Assembly: GCA_029976075.1 (NCBI GenBank)
Contig: JARKNW010000029.1
Span: forward strand, 1 to 64,000
Reading direction: 5' to 3'
DNA from: Pleomorphomonas sp.
GTDB lineage: Bacteria; Pseudomonadota; Alphaproteobacteria; Rhizobiales; Pleomorphomonadaceae
Length of the DNA: 64,000 nt
The notes under the pieces are model-generated. The model had not been told where the DNA came from and ran no database searches. It saw only the letters and a program-made list of their open reading frames with translations. Shown here piece after piece: positions 29,351-44,374 of the stretch. Positions within the stretch are counted from its first letter, which is position 1; each line of letters begins with the position of its first letter. The position numbers were made by a program, and so were the translations under genes.

Positions 29351-29932
29351 TCAAGAGGAGGCTTTGTCGTTTGCCATTGTGAGGCGCACCACGAGAGCTG
29401 CGTCCGTCCCGTCGATCTCGAGACCCACCTTCTGGTCCCGGTCGCATTCGATCAACTCGCCTGATTCCGCGCGGATTGTCGCATCTTCGACGTAGACGGT
29501 GACACCGCCGCGGACCGCCAGGACATAGGTCAGCGAGGCGGGCGGCATCACGCCGCTTCGAGCAAGCTCCACCTCCGCAACTATCTTTCCTCGCACCGTC
29601 ATGACGTTGAAATCGCGAGACGGACCATGGACGACCGTCGCGCTCGTCGACCAGTCTCCGGAGAAGGCCAGAGCCTCGAATGGTCGCAGTGAAACTGGCG
29701 GGCGTGCTCCGCCGAAATCCAGATCGAAGCCCTCGCCATCGATCAGCGTGATGATCCGATCGATGCCAGGCAGAGGAGAGAATGGGCCGGGCTCGACGAC
29801 ATCGGCGATCGACAGGCGCCAGAGCAGTCTTCCGGCCGCGTCATCCTGCCGGACGAGCTCCAGCGTGGTGCCGCGGCCGTTTTTCCACGGCAAACGCCGA
29901 AAGTCTGCAGCCGTGAGAAGCCGGAGGCTCAT
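29351..29932 (-). CDS. hutD: HutD/Ves family cupin protein
   Basis: A 193-residue HutD family protein, a bicupin-fold protein of uncertain biochemical role encoded with histidine-utilisation genes, thought in pseudomonads to modulate hut expression. Recognisable features are the opening [58 protein letters not shown], and [22 protein letters not shown]. The ATG at 29932 overlaps the hutU stop by 4 bases (ATGA), so it is the second gene of a hutU-hutD operon. The track start lies 14 codons upstream inside hutU. Confidence 0.9.
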
Positions 29933-31602
29933 TTGCCGAGCATCGGCAGGTCGAGTTCCTTTTCGCGAGCACACTCGATGGCGATGTCATAGCCTGCGTC
30001 GGCGTGGCGCATGACGCCGGTCGCCGGATCGTTGTGAAGGACGCGGGCGATGCGGCGGTCGGCATCCTCGCTACCATCGCAGACAATGACCATGCCGGCA
30101 TGCTGGGAGAATCCCATGCCGACGCCGCCGCCGTGGTGCAGCGAAACCCAAGTCGCACCGGAAGCGGTGTTGAGCAGGGCGTTGAGGAGTGGCCAGTCCG
30201 AGACCGCGTCCGAGCCGTCGCGCATCGCCTCGGTTTCCCGGTTGGGCGAGGCGACGGAACCGCTGTCAAGATGATCTCGGCCGATGACGATCGGCGCCTT
30301 GACGATCCCCTGCCGGACCAGTTCGTTGAAGGCGAGGCCGAGGCGGGCGCGAGCCCCGAGCCCAACCCAGCAGATGCGAGCCGGCAGCCCCTGGAAGGCG
30401 ATACGCTCGGCGGCCATGTCCAGCCAGTTGTGAAGATGGGGGTTGTCGGGCAACAGCTCCTTCACCTTGGCGTCGGTGGCCGCGATGTCGGCCGGGTCAC
30501 CCGATAGCGCTGCCCAGCGGAACGGGCCGATGCCACGACAGAACAGCGGCCGGATATAGGCCGGGACGAAGCCGGGGAATGCAAAGGCATCTTTCTCGCC
30601 TGCGTCGAAGGCGCGCTGCCGGATGTTGTTGCCGTAGTCGAACACCGGGATGCCCAGCTTCTGGAAATCGAGCATGGCGCGGACGTGCTGCCGCATCGAA
30701 GCGGTGGCGGCGGCAATCACCGCCTCAGGTTCCACCTTGGAGCGAGCACGGTATTCCTCCCATGTCCAGCCCGACGGCAAATAGCCATTGAGCGGATCGT
30801 GGGCGGACGTCTGGTCGGTGACGAGATCGGGGCGCACTCCGCGACGGACCAGTTCGGGCAAGACGTCAGCCGCGTTGCCGAGCAGGGCGATCGAGACGGC
30901 TTCGCCTTTTCCCGTGTGCTCTGCAATGAGACTGAGCGCGTCGTCGAGATCCTTGGCCTGCTTGTCGACATAACGGGTCCGCAGGCGGAAATCGATGCGC
31001 GACTGCTGGCACTCTACCACCAGGGCGCACGCACCAGCCATGACGGCGGCGAGCGGCTGAGCGCCGCCCATTCCGCCGAGGCCTGCCGTCAGTACCCATC
31101 GTCCCTTGAGGTTACCCTCGTAATGCTGGCGCCCGGCTTCCACGAATGTCTCGTAGGTACCCTGCACGATTCCCTGTGCGCCGATGTAGATCCATGAACC
31201 GGCCGTCATCTGGCCGTACATCATCAACCCATCGGCATCGAGCTTGTTGAAATGCTGCCAGTTCGCCCAGTTGGGGACCAGATTGGAGTTGGCAATCAGC
31301 ACACGCGGCGCATCCTTGTGCGTCCGGAAAACGCCCACCGGTTTGCCTGATTGGACCAGCAGCGTCTCGTCTTCCTCAAGGCGCTCGAGCGTGCGAACGA
31401 TGGTGTCGAAGCACTCCCAGTCGCGAGCCGCGCGACCAATGCCGCCATAGACAACCAGCTCCTTGGGATTTTCGGCGACGTCGGGGTCAAGGTTGTTCAT
31501 CAGCATGCGAAGTGGCGCCTCGGTCAGCCAGCTTTTGGCCCGAAGCGTCGTGCCCCTGGGGGCGCGGATTTCGATGTCACGATATCGCGTGTTGCTCGGC
31601 AT
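29929..31602 (-). CDS. hutU: Urocanate hydratase
   Basis: A 557-residue urocanase that converts urocanate to 4-imidazolone-5-propionate, the second step of histidine degradation, in the cytoplasm with tightly bound NAD. Family hallmarks: [41 protein letters not shown], the NAD-binding [15 protein letters not shown], the active-site segment [17 protein letters not shown] with the conserved cysteine, and [17 protein letters not shown]. Length is normal. AGGGG lies upstream of ATG 31602. A HutC-type palindrome sits 14 bases before the start codon. hutD overlaps its end. The preceding acyltransferase gene is 53 bp upstream in the same direction. Confidence 0.97.
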
Positions 31603-31615
31603 GATGAACCCCTAT

Positions 31616-31634
31616 CTTGTCTATACAAGACAAG
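31616..31634. promoter_or_regulatory. Putative HutC operator before hutU
   Basis: CTTGTCTATACAAG is a dyad with 5-bp arms CTTGT/ACAAG and a 4-base centre; overlapping it, CTTGTC...GACAAG extends to 31634. It closely matches the palindrome before hutF (CTTGTATGTACAAG, two differences) and the known GntR/HutC operator style. It lies 14 bases upstream of the hutU start, so repressor binding should block transcription initiation or early elongation. Confidence 0.75.
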
Positions 31635-32882: not shown

Positions 32883-33617
32883 TCAGGAGCCAGCGCCCTG
32901 TCGGCTTTCGATGCGGCTGCGTCCGCCGGGCATGAGAAGCCGGACAGAGGTGACGACTCGCTCGCCTGAGAAGGTGCGGCGCCGGATCAGCAGGCAAGGG
33001 TCGCTGCGGGCAATGGCCAGGAGCTTGGCCTCCCACGGAGCCGGCAATACGGCCTCCACGGTATGCTCCACGGTGGTCCATGGCGCCACGTCGCTCAGAT
33101 AGCTGTTTGGCGTGCGGGTGGAAAAATCCTGCGTCAGATAGTCGGGCGCCAGCGCCGGATTGACGTACCGGTCTTCGAGTTGCACCGGAATGTCGTTCTC
33201 AAGATGGATAACCAGCGAATGGAAGGCGGGGGTGCCGAGCTCGACGCCCAGCTCGTCGGCGAGTTCCGGTGTTGCCTTCACTTCGTCCTTCATTACCGTC
33301 TGGGCAGCGTGCGCATGACCGCGCTCGCGAATTTCATCAGCAATATTTCTCACCTTGAACACCGAGGTCTGACTCTTGCCCTCGGCGACAAAGGTCCCGA
33401 GCCCTTGGATCCGCAGCAAAACACCATCTGCCGCCAATTCGCGCAGTGCCCGATTGATGGTCATTCGGCTAAGGCCGAGAGTTGCCACCAGCTCGTTTTC
33501 GGAGGGAATGCGGTGGCGGGCGGGCCATTCGCCGCTACCGATGCGGGCGAGAATCATTTGCTTGACCATCGCATAATGCGGAGGAGTCCCGCCTTGACGT
33601 TCGTCGACGTCGCTCAT
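32883..33617 (-). CDS. hutC: Histidine-utilisation repressor
   Basis: A 244-residue GntR-family regulator of the HutC subfamily. Residues 13-78 form the winged helix (PHYAMVKQMILARIGSGEWPARHRIPSENELVATLGLSRMTINRALRELAADG), and the C-terminal UTRA ligand domain follows with AFHSLVIHLENDIPVQLEDRYVNPALAPDYL and WTTVEHTVEAVLPAPWEAKLL, where urocanate is expected to bind. It is divergent from hutF across a 109-bp gap with a perfect dyad operator. Repression of hutU-hutD and of hutF-transport-hutH until urocanate accumulates is the known logic of the family. Confidence 0.95.
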   Translation of the reverse strand: MSDVDERQGGTPPHYAMVKQMILARIGSGEWPARHRIPSENELVATLGLSRMTINRALRELAADGVLLRIQGLGTFVAEGKSQTSVFKVRNIADEIRERGHAHAAQTVMKDEVKATPELADELGVELGTPAFHSLVIHLENDIPVQLEDRYVNPALAPDYLTQDFSTRTPNSYLSDVAPWTTVEHTVEAVLPAPWEAKLLAIARSDPCLLIRRRTFSGERVVTSVRLLMPGGRSRIESRQGAGS

Positions 33618-33691: not shown

Positions 33692-33707
33692 GCTTGTATG
33701 TACAAGC
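33692..33707. promoter_or_regulatory. Putative HutC operator between hutC and hutF
   Basis: GCTTGTATGTACAAGC is a dyad with perfect 6-bp arms around ATGT. It lies 19 bases before the hutF start codon and about 75 bases from the hutC start. The same core occurs before hutU. It can control hutF and probably autoregulate hutC. Confidence 0.82.
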
Positions 33708-33726: not shown

Positions 33727-35103
33727 ATGGTAACAGATAACCATCAATTGCTTTTCGCCGAAAGAGCCTTGCTGGTTGAAGGCTGGGCGAACGACGTCGT
33801 CTTCAGCGTCGACGCGGACGGGTGCATTGCCTCTCTGGAGCAAGGTGTGGCCGCCGGCAGCGCCAAGCGCCTGGCCGGCCCGGTCGTGCCCGCTATGGCG
33901 AACCTGCACTCCCACTCTTTCCAGCGTGCCATGGCCGGTTTGACCGATGTGGCCGGGCAGGGTGATGACAGCTTCTGGACATGGCGCGAGGAAATGTATC
34001 GGCTGGTGTCGCTGCTTACGCCCGACGACGCCATGGCAATCGCGGCAAAGCTCCAGGTAGAGCTGTTGAAAGGCGGCTTTGGCCGGGTTGCCGAGTTCCA
34101 CTATCTCCATCATGGCGCCGATGGGCGCCCCTATGACGAGCCGGCTGAAATGTCGCTGGCCATCTTGCGGGCAGCCGAACAGTCGGGCATCGGGCTGACG
34201 ATGCTGCCTGTCTTCTATGCCCATTCCGACTTTGGCGGCACGGCCCCGACGGCGGGCCAACGCCGATTCATTCATGACGTCGACGGCTTCCTGAGCCTGC
34301 TGCATGGTCTGACTTCCTCCTGTCGCTCGGCCGGCGCGCGGCTCGGTCTCGCCTTCCATTCGTTGAGGGCCGTGACTGGTGACGAGATTTCCGCCGTCAT
34401 GGAGGCCGTGCCCGAGCACGCGCCCATCCATATCCATGTGGCCGAGCAAGAGCGCGAGGTGGCGGCCTCGATCGCTCATTCCGGTCGGCGCCCGATCGAA
34501 CGGCTCTACGACATCGCGGATGTCGACGAACGCTGGTGTCTCGTTCACGCGACCCATGTCACGGAAGCCGAAATGGCGATGATTGCCGGTTCGGGCGCCG
34601 TGGTTGGTCTTTGTCCGATGACCGAGGCCGATCTCGGAGACGGCCTCTTTCCGGCTTCGGACTTTATCGCCGGAGAGGGGCGCTTTGGCATCGGGACCGA
34701 CAGCCATGTCGCAACATCAGTTGCCGACGAGTTGCGCATTCTCGAGTATGGCCAGCGGCTGCGTGACCGCCGACGGAATCGGATGGCCGGCCGGCCAGGG
34801 GCATCGGTTGGCCGCACTCTCTTCGACCGTGCCGTTGCGGGCAGTGCCCAGGCGGCGGGCCTTGCCGGGGCAGGGCTTTCGGTGGGAGCCCCGGCGGATA
34901 TCGTCGTGCTTGACGGCAGTTCGCCTTATCTGGCTTCCGTGGATGGAGATACGATCCTCGATCGCTGGATATTCGGCGGTATCGGACAAGTTGTGCGGGA
35001 TGTCATGATCGGTGGCCGCTGGCTCGTCGAAGATGGTCGCCATGCGAAGGACGAGGAAGTAGATCACGCATTCGCAGCCGCTCTTCAGCGGCTCAAGGCA
35101 TGA
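33727..35103 (+). CDS. hutF: Formimidoylglutamate deiminase
   Basis: A 458-residue amidohydrolase-superfamily enzyme that deiminates N-formimino-L-glutamate to N-formyl-L-glutamate and ammonia, marking the five-step bacterial histidine pathway. Metal ligands are visible in PAMANLHSHSFQRAMAG (HxH), IHIHVAEQEREV, HATHVT and FGIGTDSHVATS. SFWTWREEMYRLV and AEFHYLHHGADGRPYDEP are characteristic of HutF. The ATG at 33727 lies just after the HutC dyad. The ABC transporter genes follow in the same direction after 84 bp. HutG, which would act next, is not in the window. Confidence 0.95.
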   Translation: MVTDNHQLLFAERALLVEGWANDVVFSVDADGCIASLEQGVAAGSAKRLAGPVVPAMANLHSHSFQRAMAGLTDVAGQGDDSFWTWREEMYRLVSLLTPDDAMAIAAKLQVELLKGGFGRVAEFHYLHHGADGRPYDEPAEMSLAILRAAEQSGIGLTMLPVFYAHSDFGGTAPTAGQRRFIHDVDGFLSLLHGLTSSCRSAGARLGLAFHSLRAVTGDEISAVMEAVPEHAPIHIHVAEQEREVAASIAHSGRRPIERLYDIADVDERWCLVHATHVTEAEMAMIAGSGAVVGLCPMTEADLGDGLFPASDFIAGEGRFGIGTDSHVATSVADELRILEYGQRLRDRRRNRMAGRPGASVGRTLFDRAVAGSAQAAGLAGAGLSVGAPADIVVLDGSSPYLASVDGDTILDRWIFGGIGQVVRDVMIGGRWLVEDGRHAKDEEVDHAFAAALQRLKA

Positions 35104-35187: not shown

Positions 35188-36024
35188 ATGAACGTTCGTA
35201 GTCTCATTGCGGCGTCCGCCTTGATTGCCGCACTGGCCGCTCCGGCCTCGGCCAAGGAGTGGAAGGAAGTCACCATCGCGTTGGAAGGCGCCTATGCGCC
35301 GTGGAATCTGACGGATGCCAACGGCAAGATCGTTGGCTTCGAGCCTGACCTCACAGAGTATCTTTGCGCCCATGCCAAGCTGAAGTGCACGCTGATTTCC
35401 CAGGATTGGGATGGAATGATCACCGCGCTCAACGCCGGCAAGTTCGACATCATCATGGATGCCTTGTCGATCACGCCGGAGCGCAAGGAAGTCATTGACT
35501 TCACGGTTCCCTATGCCGCGACGCCGGCCGTTTTCGCTGCGCCGAAGGATAGCGAACTCGCCAACCTCGCGGGCACAGGTTCGGTGGTCAAGCTTGCCAC
35601 GACCAAGGACGGTGCCGATGCCGTCGCGCCGCTCAAGAAGGCGCTGACTGGCAAGACCATCGGTATCCAGGCGTCGACCGTCTACGCCGGCTTCATCTAC
35701 GACAACTTCAAGGACGTCGCCGAGATCAAGGAGTACAAGACGTCGGCCGAGCGCGACCTCGATCTCTCCGCAGGCCGCATTGATGCAGGCTTCGATGACG
35801 CCACCTATTTTCTGGGTGCGTTCGCGAGTGCCGACAATGCCGGCCTTGCTTTCACCGGTCCTGAGATCACCGGTCCGATCTGGGGCGAAGGCGAAGGTCT
35901 CGGCGTTCGCAAGTCCGATCCGGAATTGAAGGCGCTGTTCGACGAGGCGATCAAGGCCGCCGTCGCCGACGGCACCGTGAAGAAGCTTTCGGAGAAGTGG
36001 CTCAAGGTCGACGTCACTCCCTGA
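35188..36024 (+). CDS. Periplasmic amino-acid-binding protein of the hut transporter (HisJ-like)
   Basis: A 278-residue substrate-binding protein (SBP family 3). A Sec signal peptide covers about residues 1-22 (LIAASALIAALAAPASA). The mature protein begins KEWKEVTIALEGAYAPWNLTDANGKIVGFEPDLTEYLCAHAKLKCTLISQDWDGMITALNAGKFDIIMDALSITPERKE, matching HisJ/ArgT proteins including the early cysteine pair (CAHAKLKC). AGAGGAG precedes ATG 35188. By context it binds histidine, or possibly urocanate or a related amino acid. A stem-loop follows before the permease gene. Confidence 0.92.
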   Translation: MNVRSLIAASALIAALAAPASAKEWKEVTIALEGAYAPWNLTDANGKIVGFEPDLTEYLCAHAKLKCTLISQDWDGMITALNAGKFDIIMDALSITPERKEVIDFTVPYAATPAVFAAPKDSELANLAGTGSVVKLATTKDGADAVAPLKKALTGKTIGIQASTVYAGFIYDNFKDVAEIKEYKTSAERDLDLSAGRIDAGFDDATYFLGAFASADNAGLAFTGPEITGPIWGEGEGLGVRKSDPELKALFDEAIKAAVADGTVKKLSEKWLKVDVTP

Positions 36025-36085: not shown

Positions 36086-36104
36086 TGCCCGACGGAGAGC
36101 CTTG

Positions 36105-36827
36105 ATGTCCTGGATTGACCTGATTGGCTTCGGCGAGCAAGGCCGCGGCGGGATACTCTTGTGGGCGATGTGCATGACACTCGCCGTCACCGCGGCGTCT
36201 TTGTGCGTTGGGGCGATGCTCGGAGCGATTATCGCAACGGCCAAGTTGTCGGTATCGCGCCCGGCGCGCTGGCTAGGGGATGCGTACACCACGGTCTTTC
36301 GCGGCGCCCCCGAGCTTCTCGTCATCTACCTCGTTTATTTCGGCGGCTCGCAGGCGGTGACCGCGATCGGGAAATGGCTCAATTATGAGGGTTTCCTTGG
36401 CTTGCCTTCGTTTTTGGCCGGCGCCATCGCGGTTGGTCTGATTTCCGGTGCCTATCAGGCCGAGGTTTATCGTGGCGCGTATCAGGCGGTGTCACGTGGC
36501 GAGATCGATGCCGCCCGCTCGATCGGCATGGGGACGCTGCTCCGCTTTCGCCGCATCCTTGTGCCGCAGATCTTGAGGTTTTCCTTGCCGGGCCTCGGCA
36601 ATGTCTGGCAGCTCAGCCTCAAGGACTCGACGCTGGTGTCGGTGACGGGACTTGCCGAACTGATGCGGACGTCGCAGATCGCGGCGGGCTCAACGAAACA
36701 GTATTTCCTGTTCTTCGTCGTGGGCGGCGCGCTCTATCTCGTTCTGACCACGCTGTCCGATCGCATCTTCAATTTCGCCGAACGGCGGGTGGCCCGAAGC
36801 TTCCGCAACAGTCTCGGCCGGCGCTAG
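36105..36827 (+). CDS. Histidine-type ABC transporter permease (HisQ-like)
   Basis: A 240-residue inner-membrane permease. Five hydrophobic segments, the FRGAPELLVIYLVYFGG stretch that follows the first helices in HisQ/OccQ proteins, and an EAA loop (EIDAARSIGMGTLLRFRRILVPQILR-type) are visible. ATG 36105 follows GGAGAG; the track starts at an in-frame TTG one codon earlier. It is the second gene of the transporter set, 13 bp before the next permease. Confidence 0.92.
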   Translation: MSWIDLIGFGEQGRGGILLWAMCMTLAVTAASLCVGAMLGAIIATAKLSVSRPARWLGDAYTTVFRGAPELLVIYLVYFGGSQAVTAIGKWLNYEGFLGLPSFLAGAIAVGLISGAYQAEVYRGAYQAVSRGEIDAARSIGMGTLLRFRRILVPQILRFSLPGLGNVWQLSLKDSTLVSVTGLAELMRTSQIAAGSTKQYFLFFVVGGALYLVLTTLSDRIFNFAERRVARSFRNSLGRR

Positions 36828-36840
36828 AAGGGAGGACGCC

Positions 36841-37578
36841 ATGGATTTCGATGTCGCCTTCCTATGGTCGACCTTTGTCAAGCTGGTCAGCGCGGTGCCG
36901 ATGACGCTGGGGTTGTTCGCGGCCTCGGTCAGCCTTGGCGCGGTGTTCGCGCTTGGCATCACCTATTGCCGGGTGTCCGGCGGGCTTGTGGCGTCAGCCT
37001 TTGCGCGCGCCTACGTCTTCGTGTTCCGCGGTTCGCCGCTGCTCATTCAGATGTTCCTCATCTACTATGGTCTCGGACAGTTCCCGGCGGTCCGCCATAG
37101 CCTGTTCTGGCCGGTGTTGCGCGACCCCTTCTCCTGCGCCGTGCTGGCGCTCGCTCTGTGTACCGCCGGCTATCAGGCGGAAATCATGCGCGGCGGCTTG
37201 CAGGCGGTTCCCGCGCGCGAGATCGAGGCGGGTCGGGCGGCCGGCATGTCGGGCCTGCTGCTGTTCCGGCGGATCATCGGCCCGATCGCCATCCGGCAGG
37301 CGCTGCCGGCCTACTCAACCGAGGTCATCCTGATGGTGAAATCGACGGCGCTCGCCAGCCTCGTCACCGTCTGGGAGGTGACCGGTACGGCGCAGCGACT
37401 GATTTCACAGACTTATCGCACCATGGAGGTGTTCCTGGTCGCGACGCTGATCTATCTTCTGATCAATTTTATCATTGTCCGCCTGATGGCCCTCGTCGAA
37501 TACCGTCTGTCGCCGCACCTCAGGGAGCGGCCGGTTGTGGCGAGTGGCAGTGGACGCCAGGGAGAGGTTCATGGCTGA
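36841..37578 (+). CDS. Histidine-type ABC transporter permease (HisM-like)
   Basis: A 245-residue inner-membrane permease pairing with the preceding gene. It shows [20 protein letters not shown] near residue 62 and an EAA loop ([27 protein letters not shown]-type) near 125, followed by [21 protein letters not shown], conserved in HisM/OccM. GGGAGG precedes ATG 36841. Its last 8 bases overlap the ATPase gene. Confidence 0.92.
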
Positions 37579-38350
37579 CGCCCCGGTACCGGCAATTTCG
37601 GTCCGCAACATCCACAAGTCCTTCGGTCAGCACGAGGTGCTGCGTGGCATCTCGCTCGACGCCCAAGACGGCGACGTGATCTCCATTCTCGGAGCGTCCG
37701 GTTCCGGCAAAAGCACCTTTCTTCGCTGCATCAATCTCCTTGAGACGCCGGATGAGGGCGAGATCACGGTGGCCGGCGAAGCCATCGCCATGAAGCGCAA
37801 CCGGGCTGGTTCCCTGGTGCCGGCCGACCGCAAGCAGGTCGACCGCATTCGCTCGGAACTTGCCATGGTGTTCCAGAGCTTCAATCTCTGGTCCCACATG
37901 ACGGTGCTGCAGAACCTCATCGAAGGGCCCGTGCACGTCCTGAAGCGACCGAAGGCGGAGTGCATCGAGGAGGCCGAAGCGCTGCTCGAAAAGGTCGGCC
38001 TTGCCGAGCGGCGCAACTACTATCCGGCCCATCTGTCCGGCGGTCAGCAGCAACGTGCCGCCATCGCGCGGGCGTTGGCTATGCAGCCGAAGGCGCTGCT
38101 GTTCGACGAGCCGACTTCGGCGCTTGATCCGGAGCTGGTGGGCGAGGTTCTCAAGGTCATGCGGTCGCTCGCCGAAGAAGGGCGGACGATGCTGGTGGTC
38201 ACTCACGAGATGGCCTTCGCGCGCAACGTCTCGGACCGTGTGATGTTCTTGCACGAAGGTGTCGTTGAGGCCGATGGAGCCCCGGAGGACATCTTCACCA
38301 ACTCCGACTCCGAGCGCTTCCGCCAGTTCATCGGCAACTTCCAAGCCTGA
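37571..38350 (+). CDS. Histidine-type ABC transporter ATP-binding protein (HisP-like)
   Basis: A 259-residue cytoplasmic ATPase. Walker [10 protein letters not shown], the Q-loop region [19 protein letters not shown], signature [16 protein letters not shown], Walker [15 protein letters not shown], and the H-loop [10 protein letters not shown] are all intact. The FAF-like insertion before the Q-loop ([26 protein letters not shown]) is typical of HisP/OccP. ATG 37571, with GGGAGAGG upstream, overlaps the permease gene. The hutH-like gene starts 7 bp after its stop, linking transport to the lyase gene. Confidence 0.94.
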
Positions 38351-38357
38351 GGGCGGC

Positions 38358-39854
38358 ATGGCTGAGGACACCAAGACAGACATCGTCGTCGATACCCATC
38401 TCGGCTGGCGCGATGTCGCCGCCGTTGCCGAAGGTGCCCGCCTCAGTCTTTCGGGTGCATCCAAGCGACGCATCGCCGACGCCCGCGCGGTGGTCGAAAC
38501 CATCGTCGATCGCGGTATTCGCGCCTATGGCGTCAACACCGGCGTCGGTGCCCTCTGTGACGTGGTGGTGGATCGACCGCTGCAGCGACAGCTGTCGCAC
38601 AACATCCTGATGAGTCATGCCACCGGTATCGGGGCGCCACTCGGCGTTGTCGAAACGCGGGCGATCATGGCGGCGGCGGTCAGCAACTATGCGCTCGGCC
38701 ATTCTGGCGTCAGGCTGGAGGTGGTCGATGCGCTGGTTCGCTTGCTCAATGCGGATGTGACGCCGATCGTGCCGGCCAAGGGGTCGGTGGGCTATCTCAG
38801 CCATATGGCGCACATCGCCCTGGTGTTGATTGGCGCCGGCCGGGCCAGGGTCGGCGACAAAACGGTCACAGGCGGCGAAGCGCTGACGGCGGCAGGTCTC
38901 GCTCCGCTCGAGCTCGGCGCCAAGGAGGGGTTGTCGCTGGTCAACGGCGTTCCCTGTGCCTCCGGGTTGGCATCCCTGGCGTTGAAACGATCGGAGCGGG
39001 TGCTCGATTGGGCCGATGCCATTGCGGCGCTGACCATCGAGGCGCTGATGGGAAACCCGGCGGCCTTCGATCCGATCGCTTTGTCACTTCGGGTTTCTCC
39101 CTCTCTGCAGATCGTCGGCGCGGCGTTGCGCGATCGGCTTGCCGGCAGCGGCATCATTGCCGCCGGTACCGGTCGCAAGACGCAGGATGCCCTGTCGCTA
39201 CGTGCCGTGCCACATGTGCACGGAGCAGCGCGCGATGCCTTTGACGTCGCAGCCGGTGTCGTGTCGAACGAGCTGGCGTCGGTGTCGGACAATCCGGCGA
39301 TTGTCGGCACGCCCGATATGCCCGGCGTGCATTCCGAGGCGCACGCGGTTGGCGCTGCCATGGGGCTTGCACTCGATCACTTGGCGATTGCGCTTGCCGA
39401 GGTGGCGGCGATGGCGGAACGGCGGGTCGACCGGTTGGTCAATCCTCTAGTCAGCGGGCTGCCCGCCTTTCTTGCCGCCGACAGCGGCGTCAACTCTGGC
39501 TTCATGATCGCCCAATATGCCGCCGTGTCGCTGGTCAACGAAAACCGGCGTCTGTCGCTTCCGGCGAGCCTTGACGGCGGCATAACCTCGGCGCTGCAAG
39601 AAGATCACCTAAGCCATGCAACGCCCGCTTCGCTGAAGGCGCTTGCGGTGATCGAAAACGCAGAAGCCATTCTTGGCATCGAGTTGCTTGCCGCGGCCCA
39701 GGCGCATGAGTTCCGGCACGATGGGCGAGCTGCGGGAACGGACCGCCTTTATCGTCAGTTGCGCCATGTTGTCTCGGTTTACACCGATGATCGCCCCCTG
39801 GCCGACGACATGGCGCTGGCGGCCGATCTCATCAGGACGGAACTGCCTGCGTAG
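38358..39854 (+). CDS. Histidine ammonia-lyase family protein lacking the MIO-forming Ala-Ser-Gly triad
   Basis: A 498-residue member of the HAL/PAL aromatic ammonia-lyase family, in the position expected for HutH (7 bp after the transporter ATPase, GAGGGC ribosome site). Kept family features are AYGVNTGVGAL (Tyr57), LSHNILMSHATG (His87), KEGLSLVNGV (the Asn) and NSGFMIAQYAAVSLVNENR. The electrophile motif is not there: canonical GSVG-ASGDLAPLAHM reads GSVG-YLSHMAHI (residues 142-152), exactly three residues shorter, so no MIO can form by the known route. The QDPYSLR tyrosine is Leu (QDALSLR), and the SGGNFHG segment is GVHSEAH. It may be a non-lyase paralogue, an enzyme with another mechanism or a partner subunit. 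Family membership is secure; lyase activity is doubtful. Confidence 0.9.
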   Translation: MAEDTKTDIVVDTHLGWRDVAAVAEGARLSLSGASKRRIADARAVVETIVDRGIRAYGVNTGVGALCDVVVDRPLQRQLSHNILMSHATGIGAPLGVVETRAIMAAAVSNYALGHSGVRLEVVDALVRLLNADVTPIVPAKGSVGYLSHMAHIALVLIGAGRARVGDKTVTGGEALTAAGLAPLELGAKEGLSLVNGVPCASGLASLALKRSERVLDWADAIAALTIEALMGNPAAFDPIALSLRVSPSLQIVGAALRDRLAGSGIIAAGTGRKTQDALSLRAVPHVHGAARDAFDVAAGVVSNELASVSDNPAIVGTPDMPGVHSEAHAVGAAMGLALDHLAIALAEVAAMAERRVDRLVNPLVSGLPAFLAADSGVNSGFMIAQYAAVSLVNENRRLSLPASLDGGITSALQEDHLSHATPASLKALAVIENAEAILGIELLAAAQAHEFRHDGRAAGTDRLYRQLRHVVSVYTDDRPLADDMALAADLIRTELPA

Positions 39855-39887: not shown

Positions 39888-40172
39888 GCTTGAGTCCTAG
39901 ATTAGAAAAACTATATAACATGCTGAAATATATACAATTAACGTCATTCTTAATGTGTTGAATCTGGTTGGCTTCGCATCTCTTCAAGCGAAGAATCATG
40001 TGTATTCGGAATGTGAGTCAACCTGCTTCATGTTGTGAATCATGTTGCGTGGGCAGGAAAGCGCGTCTGAGTATAAATGCGAATGACTCGCAAAAACACT
40101 GGCGGCGCTATTGACAGGTCCGCCTTAAATGTTGAAAGCAATAGTCACCTTATTTGTCGGCAGGAGACAGGG
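39888..40172 (+). promoter_or_regulatory. AT-rich upstream region of the iron-uptake operon
   Basis: No gene is supported here. The part from 39900 to 39960 is clearly AT-rich (attagaaaaactatataaca) and probably contains the efeU promoter. Iron control by Irr, RirA or Fur would be expected in this group, but I found no sequence that I can call an ICE, IRO or Fur box with confidence. Confidence 0.4.
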
Positions 40173-41018
40173 GTGCTTGCGCCATTTCTCATCATGCTAC
40201 GCGAGGGCATAGAAGCCGCGCTGGTGACCGGAATCATTGCGAGTTATCTCAGACAGACCGGGCGCGGCGCCTTTCTGCCAGTTGTCTGGGTCGGGGTCCT
40301 TCTTGCTGTCGCCCTGTCGCTGTTCGCCGGTGCAGCCCTTCAGATGATGGCTGCCGAGTTCCCCCAGAAGGCGCAGGAGCTGTTCGAAGCCATTGTCGGT
40401 TTCGTGGCAGTGGTCGTGCTGGTCAGCATGGTTTTCTGGATGCGTCGCGCCGCTCGCTCCATCAAGGGTGAACTTCATGGCGCGATCGAGACTGCCATGC
40501 GCGCACCGAACGGCGCCACCTGGGCGTTGATCGGCATGACCTTCTTCGCCGTCGGGCGCGAGGGGCTCGAGTCCGTTTTCTTTCTGCTCGCCGTATTCCA
40601 GCAGAGTCCGGGCGGCGCCGCGCCGGTCGGTGCTCTTCTCGGCCTGCTGGTGGCGGTTGCTCTCGGCTACGCGCTCTATCGCGGCGGCATCAGTCTCGAT
40701 CTCAGGCGCTTCTTCCGCTGGACCGGTGTTTTCATTCTCGTCGTGGCGGCCGGGCTTGCCGCTGCCAGCTTGCGGAGCCTGCATGAAGCGGGGGTGTGGA
40801 ACCTCCTGCAGGCGCACGTCTACGATCTGTCCGGCACGCTGCCGGTGTCGAGTGTGCTCGGCACCATTCTTTCCGGCGTGTTCAACTATCAGGAAGCGCC
40901 GACCCTCGGCGAGGTTGGACTTTATGTCGTTTTCCTCGTGGTGACGCTGACGCTGTTCCTGAAGCCCGAGCGGCCGGCTTTTTTCAGGCCGGCGGTCACC
41001 GGGAGTGAAAAGGGGTAA
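40173..41018 (+). CDS. efeU: FTR1-family ferrous-iron permease
   Basis: A 281-residue inner-membrane iron permease. GTG 40173 with AGGAG upstream is chosen; it gives the normal EfeU length and N-terminus VLAPFLIMLREGIEAALVTGIIASYL, whereas the track adds 32 residues. The two iron-binding RExxE motifs are REGIE near residue 11 and REGLE near 130 (FFAVGREGLESVFF). Seven hydrophobic segments are visible. It imports iron delivered by EfeO/EfeB. First gene of a four-gene operon; the next gene begins 2 bp after its stop. Confidence 0.94.
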   Translation: MLAPFLIMLREGIEAALVTGIIASYLRQTGRGAFLPVVWVGVLLAVALSLFAGAALQMMAAEFPQKAQELFEAIVGFVAVVVLVSMVFWMRRAARSIKGELHGAIETAMRAPNGATWALIGMTFFAVGREGLESVFFLLAVFQQSPGGAAPVGALLGLLVAVALGYALYRGGISLDLRRFFRWTGVFILVVAAGLAAASLRSLHEAGVWNLLQAHVYDLSGTLPVSSVLGTILSGVFNYQEAPTLGEVGLYVVFLVVTLTLFLKPERPAFFRPAVTGSEKG

Positions 41019-41020
41019 GG

Positions 41021-42211
41021 ATGTCTTCGCCTGATCCGCAACGCGTCGGCGTCCCGTCGTCGCGAATGATAGCTATTGCCCTCGTCGGGGCGGGTGCGCT
41101 GGTGCTGGCCGGCGGTGGGGCTTTCTATTTTGCCTCTCAGAAGGTTTCGCGGCCGGTCGACGCAGGCACCATTTCCGTTCGCGTCGGCGACAAGAGCTGC
41201 GAGCCGATGGACCTGACCGTGCCGGCCGGTCGCAGCGTCTTCGAAATCGAGAACGCATCGAACCGCCCGATCGAGTGGGAAATTCTCGACGGTGTGATGG
41301 TCGTCGAGGAGCGCGAGAACATTGCCCCTGGTTTCGAGGCCCAACTTACCGTGCGCCTCAAGCCCGGCGTCTATGACATCACTTGCGGTCTCCTGTCCAA
41401 TCCGCGCGGCAAGCTGACCGTGACCGCATCTGCCCATTCGGAGGCCGAGCGAGCGAAGCCGCCGCTCAAGGCATTCATTGGTCCGCTGTCCGAATACAAG
41501 GTCTACCTAGCTCTGCAGTCGGGCCAGATGAGCCAGACGACAAAGGTACTTGCGAGCGCCGTTGAGTCCGGCGACATCGCCGAGGCGAAGGCTGCTTATG
41601 CAGCCGCCCGCGTTGCCTATCGGCATGTGGAATCGGTCAGCGGTCGTATCGCCGACATCGAGAATGCCATCGACCCAATCGCCGCCTATCTGGCCGGTCG
41701 CGAGCAAGACCATGCTTTCACTGGTTTTCACCGCATCGAACTCGGTCTCTTCAGGGAGAACTCCACGGCGGGCCTGAAGCCGATCGCCGACAAGCTGGCA
41801 CTGGATGCGGCGGTACTACGGGACCGTCTCAAAACGGTGAAGTTCGAACCTGGCGATCTTGCGGGCAGTGCAGCGCGTGAGGCGCGACGGCTCGCCGAGG
41901 GACCTGTCGTTTCCGGCGACAGCCTTTATGCCGGCGATGACCTCAGCGAGTTTGCCGCTGCCGTAGACGGGCTTGAGAAGCCGGTGTCGCTGCTTCTGCC
42001 GCTCACTGGCGAGGCATCGCCGGACACACTAAGGGCCGTCAACGATGCCTTCGCGGCGGCGAGAGCCGAAATCGACAAGCTTGCCGGACCAGGCGCCGCG
42101 CCTGTCACCTATTCCGAAGTACCGCCGGATGCCCGCAAGGTGCTCTCGGCCACGTTTGTCGCGCTCGCCGAAGCTATCGACCGGATCAATCCGTCGCTTG
42201 GGTTGGAGTAA
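41021..42211 (+). CDS. efeO: Iron-uptake protein EfeO (cupredoxin plus imelysin domains)
   Basis: A 396-residue periplasmic, membrane-tethered EfeO. One hydrophobic segment (IAIALVGAGALVLAGGGAFYFA, about 17-39) anchors or exports it. A cupredoxin-like domain (about 48-137) has paired cysteines in GDKSCEPMDL and YDITCGLL with an acidic residue between them. The imelysin (M75) domain (about 150-390) carries the HxxE metal motif in GFHRIELGLFRENS. It is thought to bind or oxidise Fe(II) and pass it to EfeU. It lies between efeU and efeB with 2- and 5-bp gaps. Confidence 0.93.
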   Translation: MSSPDPQRVGVPSSRMIAIALVGAGALVLAGGGAFYFASQKVSRPVDAGTISVRVGDKSCEPMDLTVPAGRSVFEIENASNRPIEWEILDGVMVVEERENIAPGFEAQLTVRLKPGVYDITCGLLSNPRGKLTVTASAHSEAERAKPPLKAFIGPLSEYKVYLALQSGQMSQTTKVLASAVESGDIAEAKAAYAAARVAYRHVESVSGRIADIENAIDPIAAYLAGREQDHAFTGFHRIELGLFRENSTAGLKPIADKLALDAAVLRDRLKTVKFEPGDLAGSAAREARRLAEGPVVSGDSLYAGDDLSEFAAAVDGLEKPVSLLLPLTGEASPDTLRAVNDAFAAARAEIDKLAGPGAAPVTYSEVPPDARKVLSATFVALAEAIDRINPSLGLE

Positions 42212-42216
42212 CAAGA

Positions 42217-43524
42217 ATGCTCGATCCGAAGGACCTCCACCGCGCTCCTCTTTCGCTCGATCGCCGCCGGTTGCTGAAGGGGCTGGGTGCCACGGCACTT
42301 GGCGGTTCGCTGGCAGGTGTCGCCCATGCCGAAACCGCACATCATTCCGTTGCCGATGCGCCGGTGGCCAATGCTGCGAGCCAGCTTGACAGCGTTCCCT
42401 ATCTAGGAGTCCACCAGGCCGGCATCGTCAATGCACGACCGGCTAACGGCATGGTGGCGAGCTTCGATGTCCTGGCCAAAGATGCCGAAGAGCTCGAGGC
42501 GCTGTTTCGGACATTGACGACACGCATCGCCTTTCTGACGGTCGGTGGACCTGTACCGGTCCTCGATCCCAAGTTGCCGCCTGCCGATTCCGGCTTGCTG
42601 GGGCCAATGGTGCGGCCCGACAATCTGACAGTCACCGTTTCACTCGGTGCCTCATTGTTCGACGATCGGCCCTGGCTGGTTCCGCTGAAGCCGAAACACC
42701 TGAAGCGGATGATGCGCTTTCCGAACGATGCGCTCGACGCAGAGTTTTGCCATGGCGACCTGTCCATACAGATATGCGCCAACACGCAGGACACGACCAT
42801 TCATGCCCTTCGGGACATCATCAAGGCATCGAGCCGCCAGATGATCCTGAAATGGAAGCAGGAGGGCAACGTGCCGGTCATCACGCCAGGACCGGACGGC
42901 CGCGTCGAGAGCGCCCGCAACTTCCTCGGCTTCCGCGATGGAACCGCCAATCCCAACTCGTCGGATGCGATGGAGATGGATCGCGTGGTCTGGGTCGGGC
43001 CGGAGGGTGGCGAACCTGACTGGGCAACGGGTGGCAGCTACCAGGTGGTCCGCATTATCAGGAACTTCGTCGAACGCTGGGATCGCACGCCGTTTGGAGA
43101 GCAGGAACGCATCATCGGGCGAACCAAGATTTCCGGTGCGCCACTCGATCGCCGGGACGGCAGCGAGTTCGACAACCCGGACTTTGCAGCCGATCCCGAG
43201 GGCAAAGCGACGCCCATGGATGCCCACATCCGCCTCGCCAATGCTCGCGACGAAGCCGCCAAGGCGCACATCATTCTGCGGCGACCCTTCAACTATTCGA
43301 ATGGCGTCACCCGCTCCGGCCAGCTCGATCAGGGCTTGTTGTTCATCTGCTATCAGGCCGATCTCGAGCGAGGGTTTGTCGCCGTCCAGCGCAAGCTCAA
43401 CGGCGAGCCGCTCGAAGAATACATCAAGCCGATCGGTGGCGGCTTCTTCTACACGCTTCCTGGAATTCGCGGCGCTTCCGATTACGTCGGCAGCTCGTTG
43501 ATCGCCGCCGTGCGCGGCGCCTGA
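42217..43524 (+). CDS. efeB: Deferrochelatase/DyP-type heme peroxidase EfeB
   Basis: A 435-residue Tat-exported heme peroxidase. The twin-arginine signal is DRRRLLKGLGATALGGSLAG (residues 12-31) with cleavage near AHA. DyP-family features are the GFRDGTANP motif, which carries the distal aspartate (GxxDG), a conserved proximal-histidine region, DRRDGSEFDNP, DAHIRLANARDEAAKAHIILRRPFNYSNG and LLFICYQADLERGFVAVQRKLNGEPLEEYIKPIGGGFFYTLPG. It acts in the periplasm with EfeO and EfeU in iron acquisition, and may release iron from heme. The start at 42217 gives the normal length. Confidence 0.95.
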   Translation: MLDPKDLHRAPLSLDRRRLLKGLGATALGGSLAGVAHAETAHHSVADAPVANAASQLDSVPYLGVHQAGIVNARPANGMVASFDVLAKDAEELEALFRTLTTRIAFLTVGGPVPVLDPKLPPADSGLLGPMVRPDNLTVTVSLGASLFDDRPWLVPLKPKHLKRMMRFPNDALDAEFCHGDLSIQICANTQDTTIHALRDIIKASSRQMILKWKQEGNVPVITPGPDGRVESARNFLGFRDGTANPNSSDAMEMDRVVWVGPEGGEPDWATGGSYQVVRIIRNFVERWDRTPFGEQERIIGRTKISGAPLDRRDGSEFDNPDFAADPEGKATPMDAHIRLANARDEAAKAHIILRRPFNYSNGVTRSGQLDQGLLFICYQADLERGFVAVQRKLNGEPLEEYIKPIGGGFFYTLPGIRGASDYVGSSLIAAVRGA

Positions 43525-43555
43525 CCTTCCTCCATTTCATCAAGGAGACCGAAAC

Positions 43556-44374
43556 ATGCGTATTTCCGGCCTCGCCGGCGCTTCCGCGCTGGTGCTCATC
43601 CTTTCGTCCGGCGCTTTTGCCCAGCAAGCGAGCCTCGATCTCGTCGAGCCGATTGCCGAGTACAAGATCTATGTCTCGGAAAGGCTGGCAAAGCTGGTGG
43701 AGGATACCACAGCCTTCACCGCCGCCATCAAGGCGGGCGAGGTGGACAAGGCCAAGGCACTGTTCGCACCGACCCGTGTTTCCTACGAGGCGATCGAACC
43801 GATCGCCGAGCTGTTCTCCGACCTCGATGTTTCCATCGACTCGCGCGCCGACGATTACGAGAAGGCCGAGGCCGACCCGGAGTTCCCCGGCTTCCATCGC
43901 ATCGAGTATGGCCTGTGGGAGAAGAACTCGACCGAAGGTCTTGTACCTGTGGCCGACAAGCTGCTCGCCGACGTCAAGGAACTCGAAGGCCGCATCGCAT
44001 CATTGACCTTCCCGCCGGAGAAGGTGGTGGGCGGTGCCGCGGTGCTGATGGAGGAAGTGGCGGCAACCAAGATCTCCGGCGAGGAAGATCGCTACAGCCA
44101 CACTGATCTCTGGGACTTCCGCGGCAACTTCGATGGCGCTCGCAAGATCGTCGAGCTGGTTCGGCCGCTGATCGCCGACAAGGAGGCTGATTTCCTGAAG
44201 ACGGTCGACGTCAACTTCGCCACCGTCGACACGACACTCGCCAAGTACAAGGAGGGCGAGGGCTACGTGACCTACGACAAGCTGACCGAGGACGACCGCA
44301 AGGTGCTGGCGGCGGCGGTCAACACGCTCGCCGAGGACCTGTCGACTCTGCGCGGCAAGCTCGGCCTCGACTGA
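43556..44374 (+). CDS. Second periplasmic imelysin (EfeM-like)
   Basis: A 272-residue secreted protein consisting of a Sec signal peptide (about 1-22, ending GAFAQ) and a single imelysin/M75 domain. The HxxE motif is in GFHRIEYGLWEKNS, and the N-terminal DLVEPIAEYKIYVSERLAKLVEDT matches the EfeO imelysin start. The cupredoxin part of EfeO is missing, which is the EfeM arrangement. GGAG precedes ATG 43556. It ends the efe operon, 31 bp after efeB, and is followed by a terminator. It probably supplies an extra iron-binding component. Confidence 0.9.
   Translation: MRISGLAGASALVLILSSGAFAQQASLDLVEPIAEYKIYVSERLAKLVEDTTAFTAAIKAGEVDKAKALFAPTRVSYEAIEPIAELFSDLDVSIDSRADDYEKAEADPEFPGFHRIEYGLWEKNSTEGLVPVADKLLADVKELEGRIASLTFPPEKVVGGAAVLMEEVAATKISGEEDRYSHTDLWDFRGNFDGARKIVELVRPLIADKEADFLKTVDVNFATVDTTLAKYKEGEGYVTYDKLTEDDRKVLAAAVNTLAEDLSTLRGKLGLD

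Follow-up and report, generated by a model that had tools for sequence, protein, structure and literature searches.

A widespread MIO-free paralogue of histidine ammonia-lyase, linked to transporter genes, as a predicted hercynine trimethylamine-lyase

What does a histidine ammonia-lyase do once the residues of its MIO cofactor are gone? The question is raised by an open reading frame in a 64,000-nucleotide stretch of the genome of a Pleomorphomonas species (contig JARKNW010000029.1, positions 1 to 64,000; henceforth the window), whose HutH-like product lacks the Ala-Ser-Gly triad. Genes of this MIO-free type are annotated as hutH in many proteobacterial genomes. A first-pass annotation took the protein for a neofunctionalised paralogue, either an enzyme of different mechanism or a regulatory or partner subunit, on the premise that chemistry in this fold requires MIO. 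The premise is too strict: loss of MIO within the HAL fold is already known from ergothionase, which has no MIO and releases trimethylamine (PMC13405746).

The reading frame is open and intact over its 498 codons, as first annotated. Its product belongs to the aromatic amino acid lyase fold (Pfam PF00221, 483 bits against a cut-off of 27.3) and stays below the curated hutH cut-offs (TIGR01225, 464 against 539; PRK09367, 463 against 524). An AlphaFold model (pLDDT 85) matches Pseudomonas putida HAL (1b8f) with a TM score of 0.89 and ergothionase (6s7j) with 0.88; it represents the monomer, and the active site of the HAL fold is built from several subunits. Where canonical HutH has GSVGASGDLAPLAHM, the window lyase has GSVGYLSHMAHI, beginning at position 38781. 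In the alignment, GSVG-ASGDL of HutH faces GSVG-Y-L, with Ala142 replaced by Tyr and Ser143, Gly144 and Asp145 absent. The loss of three residues is real; the exact deletion of the Ala-Ser-Gly triad, as claimed initially, is one of several equivalent placements. An Ala-Ser-Gly elsewhere in the protein (residues 201–203) was rejected as an alternative origin of the cofactor: a predicted helix starts there, and the triplet is unconserved, with Ala in 15 and Ser in 7 of 121 distinct members of the family described below, and so cannot be the MIO source of this family.

Other active-site positions have changed selectively. QDPYSLR of HutH reads QDALSLR in the window lyase and SGGNFHA reads SEAHAVG, changes already noticed from the letters alone; in the alignment, Tyr280 is Leu and Phe329 is Ala. 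Retained are Tyr57, His87, Asn196, Arg282 and Gln414/Glu415, the counterparts of Tyr53, His83, Asn195, Arg283 and Gln413/Glu414 of P. putida HAL. The pattern extends to all 121 distinct members: none has the MIO triad, each has Tyr at Ala142, a gap at Ser143/Gly144 and Leu at Tyr280, and the equivalents of His83, Asn195, Gln277, Arg283, Gln413 and Glu414 are invariant, as is the tyrosine equivalent to Tyr53 wherever the alignment row covers it. His288 and Tyr387 are invariant residues new to these proteins. The first-pass list of retained residues was correct for Tyr57, His87 and the asparagine but not for the glutamate of its ENR motif: Glu395 is unconserved (Gln in 71 of the 121) and was rejected as the catalytic residue, the conserved glutamate being Glu415 in QEDH.

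We rejected a sequencing error or a pseudogene as the origin of this loop. A genome scan with six search seeds, one of them covering the altered motif, gave 363 relatives. The 80 loci retained from these are orthologous and come from independent genomes; without exception they align over their full length and read GSVGYLSHMAH with the same gap, which speaks against a sequencing error. The gene is moreover under selection, with dN/dS values of 0.080–0.115 between the window lyase and its Pleomorphomonas orthologues, compared with 0.084–0.098 for canonical HutH in comparable pairs. Pseudomonas members with the same gap were found independently by a Pfam search; their MIO-free copy (GSVGYLTHMAH) usually stands in tandem with canonical HutH and occurs in at least 23 of 40 sampled genomes. 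Since scans for GSVGY miss the Rhizobium members (GSAGYLTHNAH), these distribution counts are lower bounds. Members from alpha-, beta- and gammaproteobacteria share 86 invariant columns.

The collection of homologues and the tree that had been proposed as a check yielded a MIO-free clade. In a tree of 51 proteins (quick search, midpoint rooting), proteins of the window type group with those of the Pseudomonas type in a single clade, HutH1, with an SH-aLRT support of 99, in which the window lyase is placed by its GSxGY loop, its QD[AP]LS motif and its His288 and Tyr387 as well as by position. The clade adjoins canonical HutH and is nested within a larger MIO-bearing group, the nesting by canonical HutH being moderately supported (83–90). 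Ergothionases, recognised by their position beside thiourocanate hydratase, ErtD and ErtE genes, are placed elsewhere with a support of 100, which implies that MIO was lost separately in the HutH1 clade. Together with the invariant residues and the HutH-like dN/dS, this supports the earlier reading of the window lyase as a neofunctionalised paralogue, one that lacks MIO and is strongly selected.

Within the window, the lyase is the last gene of a same-strand run that begins with hutF and continues with a binding protein, two permeases and an ATPase, while hutC and hutU are divergent (Table 1). Two HutC-operator-like palindromes were found against 0.08 expected, using an operator motif that we take to be that of Pseudomonas HutC sites. 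The context is thus HutC-controlled and of hut type, yet the first-pass phrase "inside a histidine operon" holds in part only, as the window carries one portion of the pathway and hutI-hutH-hutG lie on another contig. The urocanate hydratase scores 984 bits as HutU and 688 as thiourocanate hydratase, against a cut-off of 930 for the latter. The binding protein scores 220 bits with octopine-binding and 199 bits with nopaline-binding protein, compared with 103–113 for HisJ/LAO. The pocket of proteins of this type is invariant and made up of aromatic and acidic residues, and the window binding protein keeps the Asp that faces the alpha-ammonium group in HisJ. The genes downstream of the lyase, at positions 40077–44374, resemble by eye an EfeUOB-type set for iron uptake that has no relation to the hut module.

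Table 1. Features of the window around the MIO-free lyase gene.
Feature	Position	Strand	Remark
HutD/Ves-family gene	29351..29974	-	
hutU, urocanate hydratase	29929..31602	-	well above urocanate-hydratase cut-off, below thiourocanate-hydratase cut-off
HutC-operator-like palindrome TGTCTATACA	31618..31627	+	upstream of hutU
hutC, histidine-utilisation repressor	32883..33617	-	
HutC-operator-like palindrome TGTATGTACA	33695..33704	+	between hutC and hutF
hutF, formimidoylglutamate deiminase	33727..35103	+	first in same-strand run
Periplasmic substrate-binding protein	35188..36024	+	among solved structures, closest to octopine- and nopaline-binding proteins
ABC permease, HisQ/ArtQ-like	36102..36827	+	
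ABC permease, HisM/ArtM-like	36841..37578	+	
ABC transporter ATPase, HisP/ArtP-like	37571..38350	+	7 bp upstream of lyase
MIO-free HutH-like lyase P0001, predicted hercynine trimethylamine-lyase	38358..39854	+	498 aa
Altered MIO loop GSVGYLSHMAH	38781..38813	+	Tyr146 for Ala142; Ser-Gly-Asp missing
QDALSLR	39183..39203	+	Leu279 replaces Tyr280; Arg282 kept

The second hutH with Ala-Ser-Gly that had been suggested as a check exists: a canonical HutH with GSVGASGDLAPLAHM lies in the hutI-hutH-hutG run of the same genome (contig C138, the window lyase being on C169). All 20 other genomes examined that carry the MIO-free gene likewise have a second, canonical-scoring HutH, read directly as ASG in 18, and the MIO-free gene therefore does not replace histidase. 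In seven further loci, too, it lies away from canonical HutH. At one locus (L235:10683-13000, genome G451), hutH1 is intact, but two overlapping frames take the place of a single canonical hutH2, which may be a sequencing artefact.

The strongest hint as to the substrate comes from the neighbouring gene. A transporter gene stands directly upstream in 108 of 114 MIO-free loci, and it belongs to one of three unrelated types: the window-type ABC system (88 loci, its order with the lyase recurring in 76 of the 80 scanned loci), HutXWV (12) and a BCCT carrier (8; 391–400 bits), with none recognised in the remaining 6. OpuAC and BCCT are betaine transporter families. HutX is an OpuAC/ProX-family protein that retains Trp residues aligning with those of ProX, and HutWV resemble choline and betaine systems. 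These betaine-type pairings vanish where the lyase is missing: HutXWV is absent from all six Pseudomonas hut loci without HutH1, and in the BCCT-bearing family the two hut loci that lack HutH1 have no BCCT gene and run directly from hutU to hutH2, so that a betaine transporter is absent from 8 of 8. The link to the upstream transporter that the first-pass annotation drew from the 7-bp gap thus stands; its choice of histidine as the transported compound is probably wrong.

The MIO-free gene is also associated with the hut pathway. A HutU-family gene is present in 16 of 16 motif-bearing genomes compared with 156 of 399 overall (p = 2e-7, ignoring phylogeny), and in five Burkholderia/Caballeronia loci the module runs into hutU-hutD-hutI-hutF-hutG, with no canonical hutH. 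In Sinorhizobium, a SolA protein of the N-methyl-L-tryptophan-oxidase type (420 bits against a cut-off of 257) is encoded 9 bp downstream of the lyase, and two other loci have sarcosine-oxidase-like DAO enzymes beside the module. No linkage of trimethylamine-catabolism genes to the lyase module could be shown. Paraburkholderia loci, among them L029:12546-19285, repeatedly carry next to the module an additional HutC-like regulator, an amino-acid ABC system, a 2OG-Fe(II) oxygenase and a GlcD-like FAD oxidase.

Which substrate would allow a lyase to dispense with MIO? Hercynine, N-alpha,N-alpha,N-alpha-trimethyl-L-histidine, is the betaine of histidine. In MIO enzymes, the primary amine would attack the cofactor covalently and so become a good leaving group; a quaternary ammonium could not attack MIO and would already be a good leaving group. 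An enzyme for a betaine could consequently lose MIO along with the residues that serve it, Tyr280 and Phe329, and would keep the tyrosine base (Tyr57), the carboxylate-holding Arg282 and the His, Asn, Gln and Glu on the imidazole side. We thus propose that the upstream ABC transporter would import the substrate, that the lyase would eliminate trimethylamine from hercynine to give urocanate, and that HutU and the remaining hut pathway would consume the urocanate. We infer substrate, reaction and direction from the lost MIO side, the kept base, the betaine-type transporters and the co-occurrence with HutU, for which a hercynine-to-urocanate lyase is the best explanation. Judging indirectly from transporters, neighbouring genes and chemistry, we consider it fairly probable that the window lyase is an active, MIO-independent enzyme of this kind, and only slightly less so that the HutH1 clade represents a second, independently evolved group of MIO-free trimethylamine lyases, i.e., hercynine lyases. 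Three unrelated transporters would then have been recruited for hercynine import across the clade. No EgtD was found in the window genome, so that hercynine would have to come from outside.

Octopine and nopaline are N-alpha-substituted amino acids, so that the closeness of the window binding protein to their binders speaks for hercynine, as do the N-methyl-amine oxidases flanking some members. That this protein belongs to an amino-acid/opine family and has kept the HisJ-type Asp counts against hercynine, as do the 6 of 114 loci without a recognised adjacent transporter. A lyase whose substrate is a different histidine derivative, N-alpha-substituted or N-methylated (a histopine-like opine or an N-alpha-methylated histidine), and which likewise feeds urocanate to the hut pathway, would suit the opine-binder kinship and the N-methyl amino-acid oxidases that adjoin the gene in loci of Sinorhizobium and of the Afifella type. 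Amines that are primary, secondary or tertiary leave poorly without MIO, however, and a quaternary amine is what the BCCT and OpuAC carriers elsewhere in the clade suggest, which makes such a substrate unlikely. The missing cofactor and, in many Pseudomonas, the tandem arrangement with canonical HutH could also be read as signs of a non-catalytic protein, either a regulatory or structural partner of HutH in mixed tetramers or a sensor of histidine or urocanate. In many genomes the gene instead lies away from canonical HutH and travels with transporters; the residues kept for the base and on the carboxylate and imidazole sides, and the recurrence of betaine transporters, speak for an active lyase. 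Of the functions first suggested, a regulatory or partner subunit appears rather improbable.

The main counter-evidence to the hercynine reading is that HutXWV is reported to participate in histidine uptake in Pseudomonas fluorescens SBW25 (PMC8871633), so that a transporter of a betaine family may not be specific for betaines. The same finding would agree with a MIO-independent ammonia-lyase for histidine or D-histidine working by a different mechanism, and so would the imidazole- and carboxylate-side residues, which are those of HutH. We regard this as very unlikely, given that the known means of expelling ammonia is gone, that canonical HutH accompanies the gene in every genome tested, and that SBW25 hutH1, treated as a dispensable histidase, is not needed on histidine (PMC8871633). 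Dispensability could equally mark a relic, but purifying selection equal to that on HutH, the columns kept invariant over three proteobacterial classes and the conserved operon leave that hardly credible. Such a relic would match the label "nonfunctional hutH1". Ergothionase proper, acting on ergothioneine or a derivative, shares with the window lyase the fold, the MIO loss and the change of Tyr280 to Leu, as well as the kept tyrosine base, Arg and Glu. Ergothionase by descent was rejected on the basis of the tree; the adjacent hydratase is a true HutU, and neither a desulfurase nor ErtD/E was found near the window lyase. An ergothionase activity is therefore a slim prospect, marginally slimmer than histidine deamination.

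Several further relatives of this fold were observed. One MIO-free HAL-like family (L202, L203, L204 and L240:4510-6045; GSLGESDLAPL or GSLGAADLAQL, with QDPLS) is encoded beside OpuAC betaine-binding proteins and a gene of the ornithine-cyclodeaminase family and is a further candidate betaine lyase. A Pseudomonas protein with GSVGYLAVEGHL (L212:6677-8119) is MIO-free, keeps Tyr280 and Phe329, adjoins a window-type ABC system and is placed in the tree as the long-branched sister of the HutH1 clade. Another set of MIO-free HAL-like proteins (L183–L187) has G[TV]xGEGDL, QDPES and Trp at Phe329. Four loci from genomes of the order Rhizobiales (L193–L196) hold clusters of ergothionase, thiourocanate hydratase, thiohydantoin desulfurase, ErtD and ErtE. 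Two Pseudomonas loci (L209 and L210) combine an ASG-bearing HutH paralogue with a 46%-identical HutU paralogue and an amino-acid ABC system of their own, possibly a modified-histidine pathway.

If HutH1 proteins are hercynine lyases, the gene would acquire a function and a common misannotation would be mended, and the presence of betaine-class transporters in hut operons would be accounted for. The reaction would provide a direct route from histidine betaine through urocanate into the hut pathway, and its by-product in soil and plant-associated bacteria would be trimethylamine, from a source not counted so far. It would also constitute a natural experiment on the loss of the MIO cofactor once the leaving group needs none. 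In the open-access literature we found no description of a hercynine lyase, a MIO-independent HutH, a link between HutXWV and betaines, or the MIO loss in HutH1 and its spread, nor any assay of this clade on hercynine.

Some of the parts are already known. HisJMPQ or HutXYZ transporters and multiple HutH paralogues are established members of the HutC regulon (PMC5343134), where such genes are read as histidine uptake systems and HutH paralogues, with no mention found of MIO loss or a betaine link. Pseudomonas HutH1 shares the MIO-free clade with the window lyase and likewise sits beside a transporter and hutU. It reads GSVGYLTHMAH and QDALS[IL]R, and differs in having a ProU/OpuAC-type instead of an opine-type ABC transporter and Pro instead of Ala at Phe329. 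The gene order in which it stands (hutU, hutTu, hutXWV, hutH1, hutH2) matches that described for SBW25, and given this identical order the SBW25 hutH1 probably carries the MIO-free motif as well. HutH of P. putida (1b8f) is closest to the window lyase in both sequence (37%) and fold and has most active-site residues in common with it, while the MIO loop, Tyr280 and Phe329 are lost in the window lyase, whose scores fall short of the curated hutH cut-offs. Ergothionase (Treponema denticola 6s7j/6s7q; Burkholderia HME13) is the nearest functional parallel in that it releases trimethylamine, the leaving group predicted for the window lyase. Unlike the latter, it keeps CA/EG-D in a loop that has lost one residue (GSIGCADIGL), has Ser at Asn195, and works with thiourocanate hydratase and ErtD/E in a clade of its own.
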